Made by a program: the position numbers and the translations under genes. The notes under the pieces are model-generated. The model made no database searches, had not been told where the DNA came from, and was given only the letters and a program-made list of their open reading frames with translations. A stretch of 35,998 nt of DNA from Bacteroidales bacterium (lineage in GTDB: Bacteria; Bacteroidota; Bacteroidia; Bacteroidales; Dysgonomonadaceae): the NCBI GenBank assembly GCA_012837345.1, contig DURL01000018.1, positions 1 through 35,998 on the forward strand, read 5' to 3'. This document shows, piece after piece, positions 11,317 to 34,593 of this stretch. The stretch's first letter is position 1, and the number at the start of each line of letters is the position of its first letter.

Positions 11317-12567
11317 ATGGCGTTACTTTATCTTCTGATCGGTTTTGTGGCGGGCGGCGTGATCGCCTGGATCATGGCTGTACTCCACATGCGATCGAAG
11401 ATGATCCCGAAGAGTGAGCATGCGGCACTCATGGAGAAGAACCAGTCGCTGCACCGTTCACTGGCAACCGTCACGGCCGAAAACAGGGCAATGATCGAAA
11501 AGCTGGAGAGCCAGAAGAGTGAGATCACCACCCTGCACAAACAGTTTAACCTGGAGTTCGAGCAGATCGCCAACCGGATACTGGAGGAGAAAAGCGATCG
11601 CTTCGCACGCCAGAACAAGGAGAACATCAACATCATCCTGAAGCCACTGGAAGAGAATATCGACCGCTTTCGCCGCAAGGTGGAGGAGGTGTACGTCACC
11701 GAGGCCAAGGAGCGCTTCTCGCTGGGTGAGGAGGTGAAGAAACTGAGAGAGCTGAACGACCGTCTCAGTACCGAAGCGGTCAACCTGACCAACGCGTTGA
11801 AAGGTAACAGCAAGATACAGGGCGACTGGGGACAGATGATCCTGGAGAACATCCTGGAGCGCTCCGGGCTGGTGAAGGAGCGTGAGTATTTCGTGCAGGC
11901 GTTCCTACGCGATGGCGATGGTAATACCCTCACCAACGAGCAGGGCAGTCGCATGCAACCCGATGTGATTATCGCCTACCCCGACGAGCGACGGGTGATC
12001 ATCGACGCCAAGGTGTCGCTCACCGCCTATGCTAACTACGTGGGCTGTGACGATCCGGAAGAGCAAGAACGGTTGATAGGTGAGCACCTGCGCTCCGTGC
12101 GGCGTCATATCGATGAGCTGAGCCGCAAGAGCTACCAGGAGTATGCCGTGTCGCTCGACTTCGTGATGATGTTCATCCCCAACGAGCCGGCTTACCTCCT
12201 GGCGCTGCAGCATGAGGAGTCGTTGTGGCAGTACGCCTATGACAGGAAGATCCTGCTGATCAGTCCCACCAACCTGATCGCCGCCCTCAAGCTGATCGCT
12301 GATCTGTGGAAACGGGAGTACCAGAACCGCAACGCCCTCGAGATCGCCGAAAGAGGGGCTGCCCTCTACGACAAGCTGGTCAACTTCGTCGGTTCCCTCA
12401 CCGAGATCGATACCCATCTCGAACGGGCACGACGCAGCTATGACAATGCATATGGACAGCTCAAGTCGGGTAGGGGTAACCTGATCGGACAGGCGGAGAA
12501 GCTACGCGAGCTGGGCGTGAAAGCGAAGAAATCACTTCCCTCCTCCCTCACGGATGAGGCAGAATAA
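11317..12567 (+). CDS. rmuC: RmuC family DNA recombination protein
   Basis: This 416-residue protein begins with one membrane helix (about 2-24), continues with a long charged coiled coil (about 30-110), then the RmuC domain (about 120-395) with the family blocks [33 protein letters not shown] and [13 protein letters not shown]. The DAKVSLTAY segment matches the PD-(D/E)xK-like core proposed for the family. RmuC limits inversions at short inverted repeats in E. coli; the exact activity is not established. It sits 65 bases after ribBA on the same strand and may be read through from it. The region just downstream holds a period-7 repeat. Confidence 0.92.
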
Positions 12568-12572
12568 ATAGT

Positions 12573-12663
12573 GGTCAGTTGTGAGCGGTTAGCGGTTAGC
12601 TGTCAGCTTTGAACCAGGAACATCGGACCAGGAATATCGAACCAGAAACTTTGAACCAAAAAC
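12573..12663 (+). repeat. Degenerate heptanucleotide tandem repeat between rmuC and kbl
   Basis: Thirteen consecutive 7-base words lie in strict register, for example GGTCAGT, TGTGAGC, GGTTAGC, GGTTAGC, TGTCAGC, then TTTGAAC, CAGGAAC, ATCGGAC. Most end in AGC, AAC or GAC. The last eight also form four copies of a 14-base unit (12608-12663). The array fills nearly the whole intergenic gap and stops 16 bases before the kbl ATG. Confidence 0.8.
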
Positions 12664-12679
12664 AAAATATTGAAAAACC

Positions 12680-13867
12680 ATGTACGGTAAAATGCAACAA
12701 CACCTGCAGGCCGAATTGAAGGCGATTGAAGAGGCAGGTCTTTACAAACGGGAACGAATCATTGTCACACCGCAGCGGGCGGAGATCAGGGTGGAATCGG
12801 GACAGGAGGTGATCAATTTCTGTGCAAATAACTACCTGGGACTATCTGATCATCCGCGACTGATCAGTGCGGCAGCTAAAGCTCTTGAGGAGCGTGGCTA
12901 CGGCATGTCGTCGGTGCGATTCATCTGTGGCACACAGGACTACCATAAGCAACTGGAGGAGACCATCAGTCGTTTCTTCGGCACCGACGATACCATCCTC
13001 TACGCCGCCTGTTTCGACGCCAACGGCGGTCTCTTTGAGCCCCTCTTCACCGAGGAGGATGCCATCATCTCCGATGCACTCAACCATGCCTCCATCATTG
13101 ATGGTGTGCGCCTCTGCAAGGCGAAACGCTACCGCTACGCCAATGCAGATATGGCTGACCTCGAGGTGAAGCTGAAGGAGGCTCAGGCACAACGCTTCCG
13201 CATCATCGTCACCGACGGTGTCTTCTCCATGGATGGCAACGTGGCGCCACTCGACCGCATCATGGAGCTGGCCAGACAGTACAACGCACTGGTGATGGTG
13301 GACGAGAGCCACTCCGCCGGCGTGGTAGGCCGTACCGGTAAAGGGGTGACCGAGCTCTACAATGTGGAGGGTGAGGTGGACATCATCACCGGCACCCTGG
13401 GCAAGGCTTTTGGAGGTGCCATTGGCGGCTTCACCACCGGTCGGCAGGAGATCATCGACATGCTGCGCCAGCGCTCGCGTCCCTATCTCTTCTCCAACTC
13501 CATCCCACCCCTGGTGGCAGCTGCAGGCACCGAGGCGTTCCGCCTTCTGCAGGAGTCGAACGAGTTACAGGACAAGCTGCATGAAAACGTCGATTATTTC
13601 GTGAGTCGCATGAAGGATGCCGGTTTCGACATCAAACCCACCCAGTCGGCCATCTGTGCCGTGATGCTCTACGACGCCCGACTGTCGCAACAGTTCGCTG
13701 CCGACCTGCTGGAGGAGGGCATCTACGTCACCGGTTTCTATTACCCCGTGGTGCCGAAAGAGCAGGCCCGTATCCGTGTGCAGCTCTCCGCCGGACACAG
13801 ACGCGATCACCTCGACAGAGCCATCACCGCCTTTATCAGGGTAGGGAAAAAACGGGAGATCATTTAA
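12680..13867 (+). CDS. kbl: Glycine C-acetyltransferase (2-amino-3-ketobutyrate CoA ligase)
   Basis: This 395-residue alpha-oxoamine synthase uses pyridoxal phosphate to split 2-amino-3-ketobutyrate with CoA into glycine and acetyl-CoA. The PLP lysine is K242 in [15 protein letters not shown], and the cofactor-binding [15 protein letters not shown] block precedes it. Length equals that of E. coli Kbl (about 398). The N-terminal [13 protein letters not shown] and [12 protein letters not shown] blocks are typical of Kbl rather than of serine palmitoyltransferase or BioF. Tdh, the preceding enzyme of the pathway, is the next gene on the same strand, so the pair degrades threonine. The gaps on both sides are filled by period-7 repeats. 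Confidence 0.95.
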
Positions 13868-13906
13868 CAACCCAACTGCTGTCTGATGTGTCTTTCAGCA
13901 CTTATC

Positions 13907-14013
13907 GCTGAAAGCTCACCGCTGACTGCTGAAAGCTTAAAATCAAACCGCTGTCTGCTGACTCTTTCAGCACCAAAAGCTGAAAGCTGAAAGCTGACCG
14001 CTAAAAGCTAAAC
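13907..14013 (+). repeat. Degenerate heptanucleotide tandem repeat between kbl and tdh
   Basis: Five words in register at 13907-13941 (GCTGAAA, GCTCACC, GCTGACT, GCTGAAA, GCTTAAA) and five at 13979-14013 (GCTGAAA, GCTGAAA, GCTGACC, GCTAAAA, GCTAAAC) are separated by partly matching sequence that includes GCTGTCT and GCTGACT. The array reaches to within four bases of the tdh start codon. Confidence 0.8.
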
Positions 14014-14017
14014 AGAT

Positions 14018-15043
14018 ATGAAAGCACTGGTAAAACTGCGTCCGGAGAAAGGCATCTGGATGGAAGAGGTTCCCGTTCCCTCCATCGGTGTGAACGAGGT
14101 ACTGATCAAGATAAAGAAGACATCAATCTGTGGCACCGACCTGCACATCTATAAGTGGGACGACTGGTCGCAGAAGACCATCAAGACACCCATGACCATC
14201 GGTCATGAGTATGTGGGTGAGATCGTGGATATGGGCAGCGGCGTGACAAACCTGAAGGTGGGTGACCGGGTGACCGGTGAGGGACACATCGCCTGTGGCC
14301 ACTGCCGCAATTGTCGCCGCGGCAAGCTTCATGTCTGTGAGAACAGCATCGGCGTGGGGGTCCACCGCGATGGTGCCTTTGCCGAATATCTCTCACTGCC
14401 GGCTGCCAATGTGGTGAAGCTCGACCCTCGTATCCCCGATGAGATCGCGTCCATCATGGATCCCTTCGGAAATGCCACCCATACCGCTCTCTCCTTTCCG
14501 TTGATCGCAGAGGATGTGCTCATCACCGGAGCGGGTCTGATCGGTAGCATGGCTACCGCCATCTGTCGCTTTGCCGGCGCTCGTTACATCGTGGTGAGCG
14601 ACCTGAGCGAATACCGACTCGATATCGCGCGTAAGATGGGGGCTACCCTCACGGTAAACCCCTCGAAGGGGGAGACCATTGCACAGGCCGTACAGAAGCT
14701 CGGCATGCGCGGCTTCGACGTGGGGCTTGAGATGTCAGGCTCTCCCGCGGGCTTCCGTGAGATGATCGACAATATGTACAACGGTTCCAAGATCTCACTG
14801 CTGGGCATCCTGCCCAATAACACCCAGGTCGACTGGAACGAGATCATCTTCAAGGCGCTTACACTGAAGGGTATCTACGGACGGGAGATGTGGGAGACAT
14901 GGTACCAGATGGAGCAGATGATCATCTCCGGCATCGACCTGACACCCATCATCACCCACCGTTTTCACATCGATGAGTTCCAGAAAGGGTTCGATGTGAT
15001 GGAGAGTGGTCAGTGCGGTAAGGTGCTACTCAGCTGGGAGTAA
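14018..15043 (+). CDS. tdh: L-threonine 3-dehydrogenase (zinc, NAD+)
   Basis: This 341-residue medium-chain dehydrogenase oxidises L-threonine to 2-amino-3-ketobutyrate, which Kbl next door cleaves. Catalytic zinc ligands are visible as C38 (CGTD), H63 and E64 (GHE). The structural zinc site has the four cysteines C93, C96, C99 and C107. The Rossmann motif GAGLIG is followed by an acidic residue in VSDLSEYR, as expected for NAD+. Length matches E. coli Tdh (341). It is the zinc MDR type rather than the SDR-type Tdh. The kbl-tdh pairing makes the substrate assignment strong among MDR enzymes. Confidence 0.94.
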
Positions 15044-23442: not shown

Positions 23443-25662
23443 TCAAAAATGATACCCGAAGCTCACATAGGGATGGAACCTGCGGGAGAGACCGGAGTAA
23501 CCCAGCTCCAGCCGCAATGGACCGGCAATGGAGAGGAAGGAATAACCCAGATTGCTTCCCCAGTAGGCATCACCCTCGAACAGGTTGTGGAGGTGATCGT
23601 GATGGCAGGTGTAGTTGAGATGAAAGTAAAGGTAGTTGTTGGGGCTGAACTCATGATGTAGCATTGCATCGACAGAAGCGACCATGTTGCCCAGCACCTC
23701 CATGCCGGCGGATCCCTGCAGTGCGATCTGCTGTGGGAGGTAGTGACCGTCTTTTCTTCCTCCCACGAAATTGCGGTAGATGTGGGGTACGCTGTCGTTC
23801 ATCACATAACGGGCAGAGATACGTGGTGTGAGGTAGGTCTTATGACCCAATTGCAGTGGCTTGTAGAAGTTCATCTTCAACACACTGAGGGGCAGTTCCT
23901 CCTGTAACTGAATGAAGTTATCGGTATGGAGGGTGTATCGAAACGAGAAATATTGACCCGATGAGGGAAAATAGGTGTTGTTCAGGTTATCATACACTCC
24001 ATTGATCATATAGTTGATATAGAGCTGATCTTCTACTCCTCTCAGGGCGGGATTGGTAGACCGTCCCAGCAGGTTGAAGAAGTCAAAATAGTCGAAACCG
24101 GCACCCAGGTTCAGCTGCACGTTTCCGAAATAGAACTCGGAGAAATTAAGGTTCAGCGCATTGCGCATCACCCCAAGGTGATAGGAGAGGCGTCCTCTGT
24201 GGTAGATGCTCAGGTCGTTGTTGCTGATACGGTAGCTCACCCCTCCCTTGTAAAAGAGGCCATTGTTGATGGAGTAGTCCACCTGCAGGTAGGGATCGCG
24301 ACTGAGTCGCGTGGTGATGTCGATCATTGAGTTATAGGATTCTCCCAGTCGGACAGTGGTGTTGGCAAGGATAGCTGCCATATCGCGGGTGTCGAAATGG
24401 ATGCCCAGGTTGAGCGTGTTGTACTCCTTCGGTTCCACCAGGAAGACCAGATCGAAGGGTTGGTCACCATCGAGGCGATAGGTGACGCGTGAGAAGAGAT
24501 CGGCGCCATACATACGGGCAGTGATGGCATCCAGATCGTTGCGGGTGACCTTTTCAATTTTTTCAGGAATCATGCGCAGTATCCACTTCACATCACGAGG
24601 CGGCACCCCTTCCACGCTTACATGATCAATGAGCAGCGTATCGAGATGAAGATAGGGGTTCTGGCGCTCTCTCACGGGAAGATCACTGCCGGTGATACCC
24701 AGCGAAGCCTTCAGTGCCATGAGAGCCTCCCATTGTGTCATTGCAGCCTGTTCGCCGCGACATATCAGGGAGTCGATTGCCGGCTTCTGGAAATCCATCG
24801 ATCCATAGGGATGAATCCTGGGAGTGATCAGCAGATCGGTATTTTCAATGTTCTGCAATCTCTTCTCCTTTCCCACGAAGTTGGTGAGCTGCTCGGCTAT
24901 CTCTCCAATGTTTCCACTTTTCTGCTTACCCACATTCTCATCCGACGGCATGATGACACCGATCACGATATCGGCTCCCATGCTTCGAGCCACATCCACA
25001 GGGTAGTTGTTGATCAGGCCCCCGTCGACCAGTAGCATGCTGTCTTTCTCCACCGGGGTGAAGACACCCGGTATGGCCATGCTGGCTCTTATGGCCTGTG
25101 GAAGGATACCCTTGCGGAAGACCACCTCCTCGCCGGTACGCACATCAGCCGCCACGCATCCGAAGGGAATGGGGAGGTAGTTGAAATCCATCTCCTGCTG
25201 AAACCCGATGGTCAGGTTCAGAAACAGGCTGTACAGGTTCTGGCCGGTGAAGACGCCACGTGGCAGGCTTACCTTTCCGCTTCTCTCCTTTAGGTTTAAT
25301 CGGTAGGGGAGTGAGACAATGAATTCATTCCGTCTGTCACGTTGGGATGCCGGCAGGTTCTCGCGGTTTACATTGTCGCTCATCAGGTAGTTCCAGTCCT
25401 GCAGTTGTATCAATGAGTCAATGGCTTGCGCGTCATAACCCACCGCATAGAGTCCCCCGACCACGGCACCCATGCTGGTGCCGGCAATGTAATCGATGGG
25501 GATGCCGGCACGCTCCAGCACTTTTAACACGCCAACGTGTGCGAACCCTTTTGCCGATCCTCCGCTAAGCACTACAGCCACCTTTTTTCGTCCCTCTTCC
25601 CCGGCCAGGGAAAATGTGACGACACAGGCAAGCAGCAACCAAATGATAACAGCTTTTTTCAT
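23443..25662 (-). CDS. Patatin-like phospholipase with POTRA and outer-membrane barrel (PlpD-like, type Vd)
   Basis: The 739-residue protein starts with a signal peptide (about 1-20). A patatin domain (about 27-225) follows with the oxyanion loop GGSAKG (34-39), nucleophile S63 in GTSMG and catalytic D213 in DGG, so the serine-aspartate dyad is intact. A POTRA-like segment (about 340-415: VEGVPPRDVKWILRMI) and a 16-strand-type surface-antigen barrel (about 416-739) end in the aromatic GYHF, a good Bam recognition end. This is the PlpD-style single-chain autotransporter in which the barrel carries the lipase to or through the outer membrane. Whether the lipase is released is not visible. The gene has a -7 box and stands alone. 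Confidence 0.9.
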   Translation of the reverse strand: MKKAVIIWLLLACVVTFSLAGEEGRKKVAVVLSGGSAKGFAHVGVLKVLERAGIPIDYIAGTSMGAVVGGLYAVGYDAQAIDSLIQLQDWNYLMSDNVNRENLPASQRDRRNEFIVSLPYRLNLKERSGKVSLPRGVFTGQNLYSLFLNLTIGFQQEMDFNYLPIPFGCVAADVRTGEEVVFRKGILPQAIRASMAIPGVFTPVEKDSMLLVDGGLINNYPVDVARSMGADIVIGVIMPSDENVGKQKSGNIGEIAEQLTNFVGKEKRLQNIENTDLLITPRIHPYGSMDFQKPAIDSLICRGEQAAMTQWEALMALKASLGITGSDLPVRERQNPYLHLDTLLIDHVSVEGVPPRDVKWILRMIPEKIEKVTRNDLDAITARMYGADLFSRVTYRLDGDQPFDLVFLVEPKEYNTLNLGIHFDTRDMAAILANTTVRLGESYNSMIDITTRLSRDPYLQVDYSINNGLFYKGGVSYRISNNDLSIYHRGRLSYHLGVMRNALNLNFSEFYFGNVQLNLGAGFDYFDFFNLLGRSTNPALRGVEDQLYINYMINGVYDNLNNTYFPSSGQYFSFRYTLHTDNFIQLQEELPLSVLKMNFYKPLQLGHKTYLTPRISARYVMNDSVPHIYRNFVGGRKDGHYLPQQIALQGSAGMEVLGNMVASVDAMLHHEFSPNNYLYFHLNYTCHHDHLHNLFEGDAYWGSNLGYSFLSIAGPLRLELGYSGLSRRFHPYVSFGYHF

Positions 25663-25698: not shown

Positions 25699-25717
25699 GC
25701 AGAAATAGTTGGAAAAG

Positions 25718-25738
25718 TTGTCAGGTATCAGTTGTCAG
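25718..25738. repeat. Short heptanucleotide repeat between LLM and patatin genes
   Basis: Three words in register (TTGTCAG, GTATCAG, TTGTCAG) lie immediately after the stop codon of the luciferase-like gene. They resemble the words in the longer period-7 arrays elsewhere in the window. Confidence 0.6.
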
Positions 25739-26758
25739 TCAACCGATCATGTCAAACTGATGTGCCAGCAGGGTGTAGGCTCTTCTGCGGGCCTCCATCT
25801 CCGGGTAGCCATCTACCATGATGATCTCATCAGCATCTGTTTTCGCAGCCCACAGACGGAGTTGATCAGCCACCTGTTCCGGAGTGCCGATCACGAACTT
25901 ACTCATCTGCTGATCGCGTACAGACTTCTCATGTGGGGTGTAGGGGTAGCTGTTCGCCTCTACCGGGGTGGGAAAAGAAGTGATCCGCTTGCCGGTGGCA
26001 AGCATAGTCCACATAAGCAGGGTAGGGGCAGCCTGGTAATATGCCTCCTCCTCCGTATCAGCAGTGAAGACACTGATGGAGAGGATCGCTTTGGGCCGAT
26101 CGTAATACTTTGAGGGACGAAACTGCTGCCGGTAGAGCTGCATCACCGGTATCGCCATGTCGGCGTTGATCTGCGCCGCAAATACGAATGCCAGTCCCTT
26201 TTGTATGGCAAACTGCACTCCTCCCGTGCTGGATCCCAGCATATATAACTGTGGCACCAGCGACGGATCGGGATTCGCAATCACCCTTGTAAACTCATGC
26301 TCTTCCGGCAGGTCATGACTGAAGAAGCCGAGCAGGTCGTCCAGCTGACGCGGGAAAGTATCCTCGCGCATCACATCCCATGAGCGTCGCAACGCATAGG
26401 CGGTACGACCGTCGGTGCCGGGAGCACGACCCAGGCCCAGGTCGATTCTTCCAGGGTGCAGCGCCTCGAGCATGGAGAAGCGCTCCGCCACGCTCAGCGT
26501 ACTGTGGTTGGGTAGCATCACGCCACCACTGCCCACACGGATTCGGCTTGTCTTCGAGGCAACGTGTGTCATGATGATTTCCGGAAACATGCTCATCAGC
26601 GATGCGCTGTTATGGTGTTCGGCAAACCAGTATCGGTGATACCCCAGCTGTTCTGCCAGTATGGCGATCTCGGTGGAGTTGTGCAACACCTCACCGGCAG
26701 AGTGGTTGTTCGGGGAGTAGTATGCCAGATCGAGTATCGAAAGTTTCAGGTCATTCAT
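25739..26758 (-). CDS. Luciferase-like (LLM class) flavin-dependent oxidoreductase
   Basis: The 339-residue enzyme has the bacterial-luciferase-like TIM-barrel pattern: LSILDLAYYSPN at the start, FAEHHN (45-50), RIRVGSGGVMLPNHS and the ERFSMLEALHPGRIDLGLGRAPGTDG block that contacts the flavin. The C-terminal VIGTPEQVADQL is also typical. These are usually FMN-dependent monooxygenases or F420 enzymes. An alkanal-monooxygenase-like (FMN) type is the closest match, but the substrate is unknown. No flavin reductase partner is adjacent. The annotation is sound at family level only. Confidence 0.88.
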   Translation of the reverse strand: MNDLKLSILDLAYYSPNNHSAGEVLHNSTEIAILAEQLGYHRYWFAEHHNSASLMSMFPEIIMTHVASKTSRIRVGSGGVMLPNHSTLSVAERFSMLEALHPGRIDLGLGRAPGTDGRTAYALRRSWDVMREDTFPRQLDDLLGFFSHDLPEEHEFTRVIANPDPSLVPQLYMLGSSTGGVQFAIQKGLAFVFAAQINADMAIPVMQLYRQQFRPSKYYDRPKAILSISVFTADTEEEAYYQAAPTLLMWTMLATGKRITSFPTPVEANSYPYTPHEKSVRDQQMSKFVIGTPEQVADQLRLWAAKTDADEIIMVDGYPEMEARRRAYTLLAHQFDMIG

Positions 26759-28020: not shown

Positions 28021-28095
28021 TGGGCGTTGACGGATTCGAACCGCCGACCCTCTGCTTGTAAGGCAGATGCTCTGAACCAGCTGAGCTAAACGCCC
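28021..28095 (-). tRNA. tRNA-Val (TAC)
   Basis: The 75-nt cloverleaf is complete: acceptor GGGCGUU/AACGCCC with discriminator A, D-stem GCUC/GAGC, anticodon stem UCUGC/GCAGA with loop CUUACAA, and T-arm GGCGG-UUCGAAU-CCGUC. The anticodon TAC is at 28058-28060. CCA is not encoded. In contrast to tRNA-Met in this window, its T-loop is fully canonical. Confidence 0.95.
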
Positions 28096-29897: not shown

Positions 29898-31145
29898 ATG
29901 ACAACAAACAACGAAGAATCGCGCCCCAAACGTCAATTTTTTAGCGCGAACAATGAGAGACACGCTGCCCCGAACCGCAATTACGGAAACGAGAGGAGAC
30001 CGCGTCAGGAGGGTTATCGTCCTTCCAACAGACCCTACAACCAGAACTCTCAGGAGAGACCCTATAACCAGGAGTCTTCCGACAGGTCCTATAACCGTCA
30101 GCCCTCTGACAGAAATTATGACCGCCAGCCCTCCGACAGAAACTATGATCGTCAGCCCTCTGAGCGATCCTATAACCGCAACTGGGAAGATTCATCACAA
30201 GGCAACAGCTACGGCAATCAGGAAGGTGCGCCCAGGAAACGTCGCCCCAGGGTGGGAGAACGTAGCGCCCCACAGCGAAGAGGCCCGGGAGGGAGCCAGG
30301 GCAATCGTAGCTGGGGTGGCCCGTCACAACAGCGTGACACGCAGAGCAGCATGGGCCCCGGCGGTAAGAGGCTGAAAAAGAAAAAACCGTTCAAGCAGAT
30401 CAAGTACAAGGAAAATGCCGATCCCAACGCACCCATCCGCCTGAACAAGTATCTGGCCAACGCCGGGATCTGCTCACGCCGTGAGGCCGATGAGTTCATC
30501 ACAGCCGGCGTGGTGAAGGTGAATGGTGAGGTGGTTACCGAGCTGGGTACCAAGATCACCCGTGCCGATGAGGTGATGTTCCATAACCAGCCGGTACGTC
30601 TGGAGAGCAAGGTATACGTGCTGCTGAACAAACCGAAGGGGTTTGTCACTACCACCGATGACCCGGAGAACCGTAAGACAGTGATGGAGCTGGTGAAGAG
30701 CGCCTGCTCGGAGCGTATCTACCCGGTGGGACGACTCGACAGGGCCACAACAGGGGTGCTCCTGCTCACCAACGACGGTGACCTGGCATCAAAATTAACA
30801 CATCCCAAATACGAGAAACGGAAAATCTACCAGGTGTGGCTCGATAAACCGGTGGTCATGGAGCATATGCAGGCCATTGCCGACGGCATTGAGCTGGAAG
30901 ATGGTGAGATCCATGCCGATGCCATCAGCTACGTGACAGAGGAGGATCTGACCCAGGTGGGTATCGAGATCCACTCAGGCAAGAATCGCGTAGTGCGTCG
31001 CATGTTTGAGAAGCTGGGCTACCGTGTGCTGAAGCTCGACAGAGTTTATTTTGCCGGGCTCACCAAGAAAAAGCTCTCCCGCGGCAAGTGGCGTTACCTC
31101 TCAGAACAGGAGGTAAATATGCTACGCATGGGTGCCTTCGATTAA
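29898..31145 (+). CDS. rluB: RluB/RsuA-type 23S rRNA pseudouridine synthase with repetitive N-terminal tail
   Basis: The 415-residue protein has a C-terminal enzyme (about 178-415). This contains an S4 RNA-binding domain (about 180-225: RLNKYLANAGICSRREADEF) and the RsuA-type catalytic domain with D281 in GRLDRATTGVLLLTNDGDL. RluB modifies 23S rRNA near the peptidyl-transferase region; RsuA or RluE type cannot be excluded. The first about 178 residues are disordered and rich in Asn, Arg, Gln, Ser, Tyr and Gly. They include a 9-residue tandem repeat (residues 60-95, 30075-30182) with units like PSDRNYDRQ and a later basic KKKKPFKQIKYK patch. Such tails are common on Bacteroidota RNA enzymes and may bind RNA. 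The leader just before the ATG is CAA-rich. Confidence 0.9.
   Translation: MTTNNEESRPKRQFFSANNERHAAPNRNYGNERRPRQEGYRPSNRPYNQNSQERPYNQESSDRSYNRQPSDRNYDRQPSDRNYDRQPSERSYNRNWEDSSQGNSYGNQEGAPRKRRPRVGERSAPQRRGPGGSQGNRSWGGPSQQRDTQSSMGPGGKRLKKKKPFKQIKYKENADPNAPIRLNKYLANAGICSRREADEFITAGVVKVNGEVVTELGTKITRADEVMFHNQPVRLESKVYVLLNKPKGFVTTTDDPENRKTVMELVKSACSERIYPVGRLDRATTGVLLLTNDGDLASKLTHPKYEKRKIYQVWLDKPVVMEHMQAIADGIELEDGEIHADAISYVTEEDLTQVGIEIHSGKNRVVRRMFEKLGYRVLKLDRVYFAGLTKKKLSRGKWRYLSEQEVNMLRMGAFD
30075..30182 (+). repeat. In-frame 27-base tandem repeat inside the pseudouridine synthase gene
   Basis: Four 27-base units (30075-30101, 30102-30128, 30129-30155, 30156-30182) encode SSDRSYNRQ, PSDRNYDRQ, PSDRNYDRQ and PSERSYNRN. 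The middle two are nearly identical at DNA level, so unit number could vary by slippage without a frameshift. Confidence 0.85.
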
Positions 31146-32657: not shown

Positions 32658-34445
<1,788 letters not shown>

Positions 34446-34451
34446 AAAAGC

Positions 34452-34570
34452 GATCAGTGGTCAGCTATCAGCTATCAGCTTCGGAGATTGAACCTTTATA
34501 GGTGCAGCGGTTTCGGTTTTCAACTTACTGCTTACGGCTTACTGCCAATAGCTTACGGCTTTCAGTATAT
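34452..34570 (+). repeat. Long degenerate heptanucleotide repeat after lepA
   Basis: About 17 seven-base words keep one register over 119 bases, while the word type changes: GATCAGT, GGTCAGC, TATCAGC, TATCAGC, then ATTGAAC, and later words built on CTTAC such as TGCTTAC and GGCTTAC. The array fills most of the gap and ends 23 bases before the next ATG. Confidence 0.75.
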
Positions 34571-34593
34571 AACCAACTAAAAATAGTGAAACT

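Follow-up and report, generated by a model that had tools for sequence, protein, structure and literature searches.

Seven-base CTGA repeats in the intergenic DNA of a Bacteroidales bacterium as possible tails of a short dispersed element

What are the degenerate seven-base repeats that occupy several intergenic gaps of this Bacteroidales contig, and by what process do they come and go? An initial annotation of the stretch analysed here (35,998 nt in full, hereafter the window; contig 114 of a 2.49-Mb draft genome) had described the gaps before kbl and tdh as consisting almost wholly of 7-base words in strict register, and had suggested a copying or slippage process working in 7-nt steps, or else a protein or RNA for which 7 nt is the unit of reading. 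The genes and repeat features of the window on which the argument depends are given below, one per line, where a head is a module of the form CCGCTG(N23)AAGCTGA, 35-37 nt long, that stands at the start of many heptad arrays, and a tail is the array that follows it.

11317-12567: RmuC (Pfam).
12568-12679, no strand assigned: rmuC-kbl gap (sequence; lag-7 z 6.6; Tandem Repeats Finder rows of period 7 and period 14).
About 12570 to 12610: AGYNNTN-type heptads in TCAG orientation, rmuC-kbl gap (sequence).
12570-12621: lag-7 segment in the rmuC-kbl gap.
12611 to about 12663: GAACNNN-type heptads, rmuC-kbl gap (sequence).
12680-13867: aminotransferase-class protein, fits kbl (Pfam).
13876-13911, plus strand: diverged head of copy 1 in the kbl-tdh gap, CTGCTG(N23)TCGCTGA (sequence; Tandem Repeats Finder 72-base unit).
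13912-13939, plus strand: heptad tail of copy 1, four words (sequence; gap z 6.8).
13948-13983, plus strand: head of copy 2, exact CCGCTG(N23)AAGCTGA (pattern match).
13984-14011, plus strand: heptad tail of copy 2, four words (lag-7 segment 13976-14012; similar tails in the orthologous gaps of relatives).
14018-15043: zinc-type dehydrogenase, fits tdh (Pfam).
25716-25739, no strand assigned: short weak lag-7 stretch near the luciferase-like gene (Tandem Repeats Finder score 34; gap z 2.3).
25739-26758, minus strand: luciferase-like monooxygenase (Pfam).
32658-34445: LepA (Pfam).
34449-34474, minus strand: heptad tail in TCAG orientation, directly past the lepA stop (lag-7 segment 34449-34480; gap z 6.2).
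34475-34510, minus strand: head of the lepA-side element, exact pattern (pattern match).
34524-34561, plus strand: second, different heptad set of CTTACNG-like words (Tandem Repeats Finder rows 34524-34545 and 34524-34561).

The period itself is real. Identity at lag 7 reaches 0.53 in the kbl gap (12568-12679; 0.26 expected, z 6.6, with z 8.0 at lag 14), 0.52 in the tdh gap (13868-14017; 0.25 expected, z 6.8) and 0.48 in the gap past lepA (34446-34593; 0.25 expected, z 6.2, with z 6.0 and 4.9 at lags 14 and 21), and for each of these three gaps none of 1000 dinucleotide shuffles scored as high at lag 7. Tandem Repeats Finder flagged the same places as the lag-7 test, and six other inter-ORF stretches of the window gave no lag-7 signal (z -1.6 to 1.2). 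As for the related arrays that had been reported further along the window, the one past lepA holds up and the one at the luciferase-like gene does not: there lag 7 is weak (z 2.3, p 0.02), the best lag is 9 (z 3.1), and the stretch is probably not the same kind of thing as the heptad arrays. Likewise, the strict register claimed for the two gaps fails in the tdh gap, where 36-base heads and a one-base register slip stand among the words. In particular, Tandem Repeats Finder reads this gap as a 72-base unit present twice (13874-14009, 79% matches), each unit consisting of four heptads preceded by a head of 36 bases; the tail of copy 2 has CTAA as its last bases, immediately 5' of the tdh start codon. 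The kbl gap holds two word families in order, AGYNNTN and then GAACNNN, the first of them in register with a TAG at 12569-12571, directly past the TAA stop; no head was found in this gap. Elsewhere in the window, we observed a 27-base tandem repeat within the ORF at 29898-31145 (30089-30178, 3.3 copies, 77% matches), a patatin-like phospholipase and an OMP85-type barrel joined in one protein that adjoins the luciferase-like gene (23443-25662, minus strand, by Pfam), and two tRNA genes by Rfam at 1099-1172 and 28021-28095 (minus strand).

The words that make up the arrays share a form, namely a CTGA anchor followed by three variable bases (CTGANNS, or SNNTCAG on the other strand). Throughout the draft genome the pattern AGC(N4AGC)x3 has 155 matches and its reversed pattern has none. 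What is more, in 1.19 Mb from four genomes (the organism's own and those of the relatives G034, G030 and G025) pairs of the form CTGA..CTGA or TCAG..TCAG number 670 at period 7 and 504 at period 14, as compared with 27-99 at periods 6 and 8-13, 34 and 41 at periods 4 and 5, and 23 for the reversed motif at period 7. The period-7 pairs are intergenic in 589 of the 670 cases, with intergenic DNA making up 10% of the total by the crude ORF calls on which this share and all gene edges discussed below rest. Units are not near-identical, and the anchor alone is fixed: 113 arrays with 537 spacers use 35 different spacer words, the top ten of which account for 455 of the 537. Of these spacers, 523 have G or C as their third base, which directly precedes the following CTGA; at their first two places G is rare when read on the CTGA strand (19 and 8 cases). 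We note in passing that this scarcity of G, seen for example in L098, amounts to a strand asymmetry, and that places 6-7 and 13-19 of the head are mostly poor in G as well. Words in the window and in the listed arrays of its genome are CTGANNG-like and are not tandem TAACTGA; in G006, G024 and G035 the tdh gap holds words of AACTGA type where the window has words of GCTGA type. The possibility that the words are translated was set aside, 7 being no multiple of 3. As a separate observation, the same genome has arrays of period 8 (GTTAGTAG / AACTTACT words) that adjoin period-7 arrays of GTTCNNN or GCGGTGA words or interleave with them (L117 2498-3026 and L110 10792-10985), and the sample from this genome shows raised counts at lags 8, 16 and 24.

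A substantial part of the arrays begins with the head. A regular expression for it, run over 61 sources, gave 43 matches (28 of length 36, six of 37, three of 35 and six of other lengths), a few of which are plain heptads or coding, as against a single match for the reversed pattern. The distance from anchor to anchor across the head is 29 bases, that is 4x7+1, and therefore the heptad register shifts by one there. Besides the required ends, 59 distinct heads have conserved inner places at 13-15 (C/A, A, A), 18 (T) and 22-23 (AC). With at most one mismatch allowed per end, a head accompanies 111 of 198 intergenic heptad runs in the stretches of the four genomes, divided as 6 of 23 in the organism's own genome, 35 of 58 in G034, 56 of 82 in G030 and 14 of 35 in G025, fractions which, like the densities of arrays, describe non-random samples, given that the own-genome stretches and the G030 contigs were chosen partly for their arrays. 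Exact heads in the set of these 198 runs number 79, and reversed sequence yields 17 one-mismatch heads in 3.1 Mb; the window contains two exact heads and one diverged head. The initial annotation had overlooked that, in array-rich relatives, about half of the arrays form the tail of a dispersed element, one whose head is conserved and whose orientation to gene edges is fixed.

By pattern, the head is confined to part of one genus. It is present in 14 of 39 genus genomes, where the reversed control gives 0. In the Bacteroidota sample the pattern matched only the organism's own genome, with eight matches of which two are plain heptads, and G239, whose four matches are plain heptads; with pure heptads discounted, none of the 295 other Bacteroidota sampled had a head. 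Among the matches listed for genome contigs, the exact pattern occurs several times per record in Proteiniphilum, in GWC2_46_850 and in the cyanobacterium Tildeniella, and single matches in unrelated genera look like chance. The record from Tildeniella nuda (L235) has three head-pattern matches within 140 bases, which are probably pure CTGA heptads. The two ends of the element differ, a head end against a tail end, and there are no terminal inverted repeats; at some sites two elements in inverted orientation mimic such ends. The head-side end is loosely fixed, with T at -11 in 70% and A at -10 in 53% of 73 heads. At the other end, the tail finishes in CTA in 97 of 179 runs by one count and in 104 of 198 by another, more rarely in the organism's own genome (6 of 23) and in G025 (7 of 35). 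One further arrangement was seen in L097 (17889-18357), where a 79-base element stands in three tandem copies with near-identical heads and tails of equal length but differing words.

How are the arrays placed with respect to genes? Where the nearest edge is a start codon, CTGA runs toward the gene in 72 cases and away from it in 13 (p 5e-11), and where a stop codon is nearest, the gene is followed by TCAG in 67 cases and by CTGA in 22 (p 2e-6), both counts being for the four genomes; the organism's own genome taken alone gives 11 to 0 on the start side and an even 6 to 6 on the stop side. Since the same lean is found in all four gene arrangements when counts are made at both edges of the gap, the bias seems to belong to gap edges and less to the direction in which genes are transcribed. 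TAG makes up 28 of the 40 stops that have an array within 25 nt, versus 134 of 927 stops overall (p 3e-16), and 22 of these 28 lie in register, i.e. at the place of the array's CAG. The organism's own genome contributes four of the 40 stop-adjacent arrays, with TAG in one of the four. The period pattern, the head, the orientation and the stop-codon register hold for the four genomes jointly, the last two mainly by way of the relatives.

A more direct view of the history of these arrays comes from the orthologous gaps of G034, G030 and G025, which we compared over a region that is 83-88% alike. Some of these gaps are free of any array, and at sites that are filled in one genome and empty in another, head and tail are either both there or both missing. 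G034 and G030 offer six such pairs. Two of them show a clean insertion with TA duplicated on its flanks, and a third agrees with TA, with small differences in A-runs. In all three the stop is TAA when the site is empty and TAG when it is filled. A fourth pair can be reconciled with TA only by a subsequent change of the stop, TAG to TGA, and the remaining two are unreadable, as the other genome has different repeats there. Between G000 and G024, neither of two filled/empty pairs supports TA. As for the tails, the number of units differs in 14 of 17 clean-ended orthologous comparisons (15 of 18 in all), which were matched by heads with 1-10 differences in 36-37 places and come from 8 gaps in three genome pairs that share loci, where matching by heads can mispair neighbours, as happened once in the tdh gap. 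Tails that differ by whole words can also be seen by eye in example gaps. The tdh-side element is recognisable in the orthologous gaps of several species, with a word number that is about constant in most relatives (4 and 4 in two comparisons). In a different vein, over L068-L071 the genomes G028 and G021, each the representative of a species, are 100% identical in the aligned parts of the window region, while G021 and G018 are 87% alike; a shared strain or mixed bins are possible.

The whole-unit differences expected by the initial annotation are, thus, found when species are compared, and its proposal of 7-nt steps stands as far as the gain and loss of units are concerned. A protein or RNA that reads the units, its other proposal, is conceivable. 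The order of words does not demonstrate slippage by single units. Adjacent words within arrays are identical in 104 of 424 cases, compared with 34.6 in a global shuffle, but a shuffle within arrays already gives 95.9 (p 0.12), and lag 4 alone stands out (p 0.002). To our reading, exchange and expansion of words inside arrays account for this better than slippage in simple single steps. Slippage of adjacent units as the sole cause is unsupported, word order barely departing from the within-array shuffle.

What kind of process would leave such a pattern? Our preferred reading, to which we give a probability of about 0.5, is that of short elements, dispersed and perhaps inserted at TA, with CTGA-heptad tails that turn over in whole 7-nt units. 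A complete copy would run from an A followed by the CCGCTG(N23)AAGCTGA head, through (NNSCTGA)n and a final NNSC, to TA, and copies would be scattered over the chromosome, mostly in intergenic DNA and with the tail end facing a gene. Insertion would often take place at TA; where this TA is part of a TAA stop, the stop would become TAG and the new stop would be in register with the heptads. Following insertion, the head would change slowly, while the tail would gain, lose and swap whole 7-nt units. The anchor would be kept because only units that share it could re-pair, whether by slippage or when recombining with other arrays, and the bases between anchors would drift inside a small shared vocabulary. 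Insertion targeted to TA is suggested by the few sites described above, and slippage or exchange may be what drives the turnover of tails. Most of the arrays checked in the organism's own genome have no recognisable head, and we therefore propose unit turnover alone for them. It speaks against the preferred reading that the head can be recognised, even with mismatches allowed, in just the 111 of 198 runs mentioned, and in so few of those from the organism's own genome.

As candidate mobilisers, three Pfam families were searched for over the 39 genus genomes. The IS630-type domain DDE_3 is present in four of them (G026, G024, G033, G018), the Y1 transposase in six (G012, G010, G356, G006, G033, G018; the copies of G006 and G018 contain stops) and a reverse transcriptase domain in 18, and no candidate mobiliser among these families tracks the element over the 39 genomes. 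Among head-bearing genomes, G018 has all three domains and G006 a Y1 copy with a stop. Neither DDE_3 nor Y1 was found in the incomplete drafts G000, G034, G030 and G025; in drafts that are 86-100% complete, the organism's own genome, G030 and G025 gave none of the three domains and G034 one reverse transcriptase only.

The arrays could also be ordinary heptameric simple sequence repeats, a doubtful reading that we nevertheless take seriously. Polymerase slippage in 7-nt steps would then build and homogenise them in place, and the head would be a co-duplicated fossil repeat that was never mobile. Arrays of other heptad words are indeed widespread, in that a looser pattern, AGYNNTN x4, matches 27 of the 39 genus genomes and 153 of 296 Bacteroidota genomes sampled (the organism's own included in both counts), and its reversed control matches many genomes too, being frequent outside the genus and exceeding the pattern itself in six genus genomes (G002, G007, G015, G022, G026, G033). 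Because the reversed control matches so widely, heptad arrays with many kinds of words are common in Bacteroidota. In most genomes rich in repeats, heptads also outnumber the other kinds of long simple repeat (Mrazek 2007, as reported in the parts of PMC4679880 compared here), and 17 of the 23 runs checked in the organism's own genome have no head. However, slippage in place sits poorly with a head of fixed length whose sequence is common to many loci, with the joint presence or absence of head and tail at filled/empty sites, and with a gene-edge bias that leans the same way in every gene arrangement.

A regulatory role for the arrays is a good deal less probable. As proposed for TAACTGA repeats in Beggiatoaceae, a translational or RNA-binding regulator would read CUGA repeats ahead of start codons; within 30 nt of a start codon CTGA does point toward the gene in 35 cases and away in 2, the published repeats have the same anchor and orientation, with 147 of 170 sets directed toward a start codon (PMC4679880, in the parts compared), and the persistence of the tdh-side element across several species points the same way. 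Regulation at starts does not, however, account for mirrored anchors past stop codons (42 versus 9 within 30 nt) and between convergent genes, nor for orthologous gaps that do without an array or for tails that vary in number and words. Still less do we favour RNA or cruciform hairpins, in which TCAG and CTGA arrays would pair into intergenic stems acting as terminators or as stabilisers of mRNA. Arrays at opposite edges of a gap are complementary, inverted pairs of heptads are described for Xanthomonas as well (PMC4692102, in the sections compared), and the tdh-side copy taken alone folds well (-20.8 kcal/mol, an 8-bp stem with a 7-nt loop). Against this, the 59 aligned heads have next to no consensus fold (-0.9 kcal/mol forward, with three predicted pairs, and 0.0 in reverse), the forward value being borderline in that 5 of 100 column permutations are as good; stem mismatches in orthologues are, by eye, without compensation; and at gathering score Rfam finds two tRNAs only in the window, none of them in the arrays, and in L097, L098 and L117 it finds nothing up to E 0.5. 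A conserved RNA structure was rejected on these grounds. Finally, we give hardly any credence to a dedicated enzyme of reverse transcriptase or telomerase type that would write 7-nt units at a primer end, the anchor serving to align the template and the spacer being slack, since a fixed anchor, a small vocabulary poor in G at the first two spacer places and a tail variable at a single end would suit it, but the reverse transcriptase domain was not found in the incomplete drafts of the organism's own genome, G030 and G025, and exchange between arrays explains the shared vocabulary equally.

How do the arrays relate to repeats already described? Cyanobacterial STRR and other heptameric long simple repeats have the same 7-nt period, with slippage as the proposed mechanism, and we know of no dispersed head attached to any of them. 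MITEs of the IS630/Tc1-mariner type that insert at TA (e.g. Correia, RUP, ERIC) are likewise small and intergenic; they have a TA at the junction, as the present element may. In contrast to these, the element of this genus is without terminal inverted repeats, and the four genomes G000, G034, G030 and G025 yielded no DDE_3; in contrast to REP/RAYT elements, no Y1 partner was found in the same four.

The initial annotation knew of no named equivalent for Bacteroidales, but one is in print: TAACTGA direct repeats have been published for Beggiatoaceae, Cyanobacteria and five Bacteroidetes, Paludibacter among them (MacGregor 2015, PMC4679880). Going by the parts of that paper compared here, the likeness is considerable. 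Those repeats are intergenic heptads with a CTGA core (TAACTGA is CTGATAA in another phase), they are mixed with other heptamers, they mostly face a start codon, as do the arrays of this genus in the 72 versus 13 cases above, and between two close Cyanothece strains their indels are mostly in 7-nt increments. They differ in being a single fixed word, whereas the arrays of the genus vary at three of seven places, have G or C before the next CTGA, carry a 36-nt head in many instances, and occur also in mirrored form past stops, in register with TAG. The heptads of Xanthomonas, (GGGANTN)n with positions 1-4 and 6 conserved, and those of Nostoc, GGGGAYT, are a second case (PMC4692102, from the sections compared). 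The former are similarly degenerate, dispersed and mostly intergenic, often form inverted pairs, and differ in length between related species; on average they lie 28 nt from their 5' neighbouring gene, nearer than to the next gene. Both kinds differ from the present arrays in being G-rich, in being discussed as G-quadruplexes and in having another anchor, and no head is reported in the sections of PMC4692102 compared. Closer in host is BrickBuilt, a minisatellite within a MITE in Porphyromonas gingivalis (PMC4596501, again as far as compared): it too belongs to the Bacteroidales, is dispersed in intergenic DNA, has a tandem-repeat part in which whole units come and go between strains, has a limited host range and is frequently found as partial copies. 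However, its unit is 23 nt long, it has terminal inverted repeats and it shows promoter activity, whereas in the element of the genus the unit is 7 nt, the ends are not inverted and only one of them bears a tail. For Proteiniphilum, which is probably the genus in question, no published account of intergenic repeats was found in the literature searched, which mostly excludes subscription journals.

Heptad arrays in bacteria are, then, a known and little-explained class, and those of the window match its members in part. We file the novelty here within the known heptameric repeats, as heptad tails attached to a dispersed head that is limited to the genus, in many cases in register with TAG stops. 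For the recurrence of seven as unit length among the long simple repeats of bacteria an explanation has been proposed, namely the stretch of DNA gripped by the polymerase (Mrazek 2007, as given in the parts of PMC4679880 and PMC4692102 compared), a test of which was not found in the literature searched. A bolder version of the preferred reading, and one that we hold to be improbable, is that a mobile element ending in a degenerate heptad tail of open length inserts into stop codons at their TA, turning TAA into TAG, and that renewal of the tail keeps the four-base anchor while exchanging seven-base words drawn from a vocabulary shared genome-wide. If this were true, it would constitute a process of mutation at the level of words, and the unrelated degenerate heptads found in Xanthomonas, in Beggiatoaceae and in Cyanobacteria would have the same explanation. 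In the present genus, the same anchor, register and orientation can be followed at individual sites over 39 genomes, filled and empty sites alike, along with the in-phase stop codon, and for this reason slippage, recombination and transposition make different predictions that can be checked. For the organisms that carry them, heptad arrays can alter stop codons and the spacing of genes.
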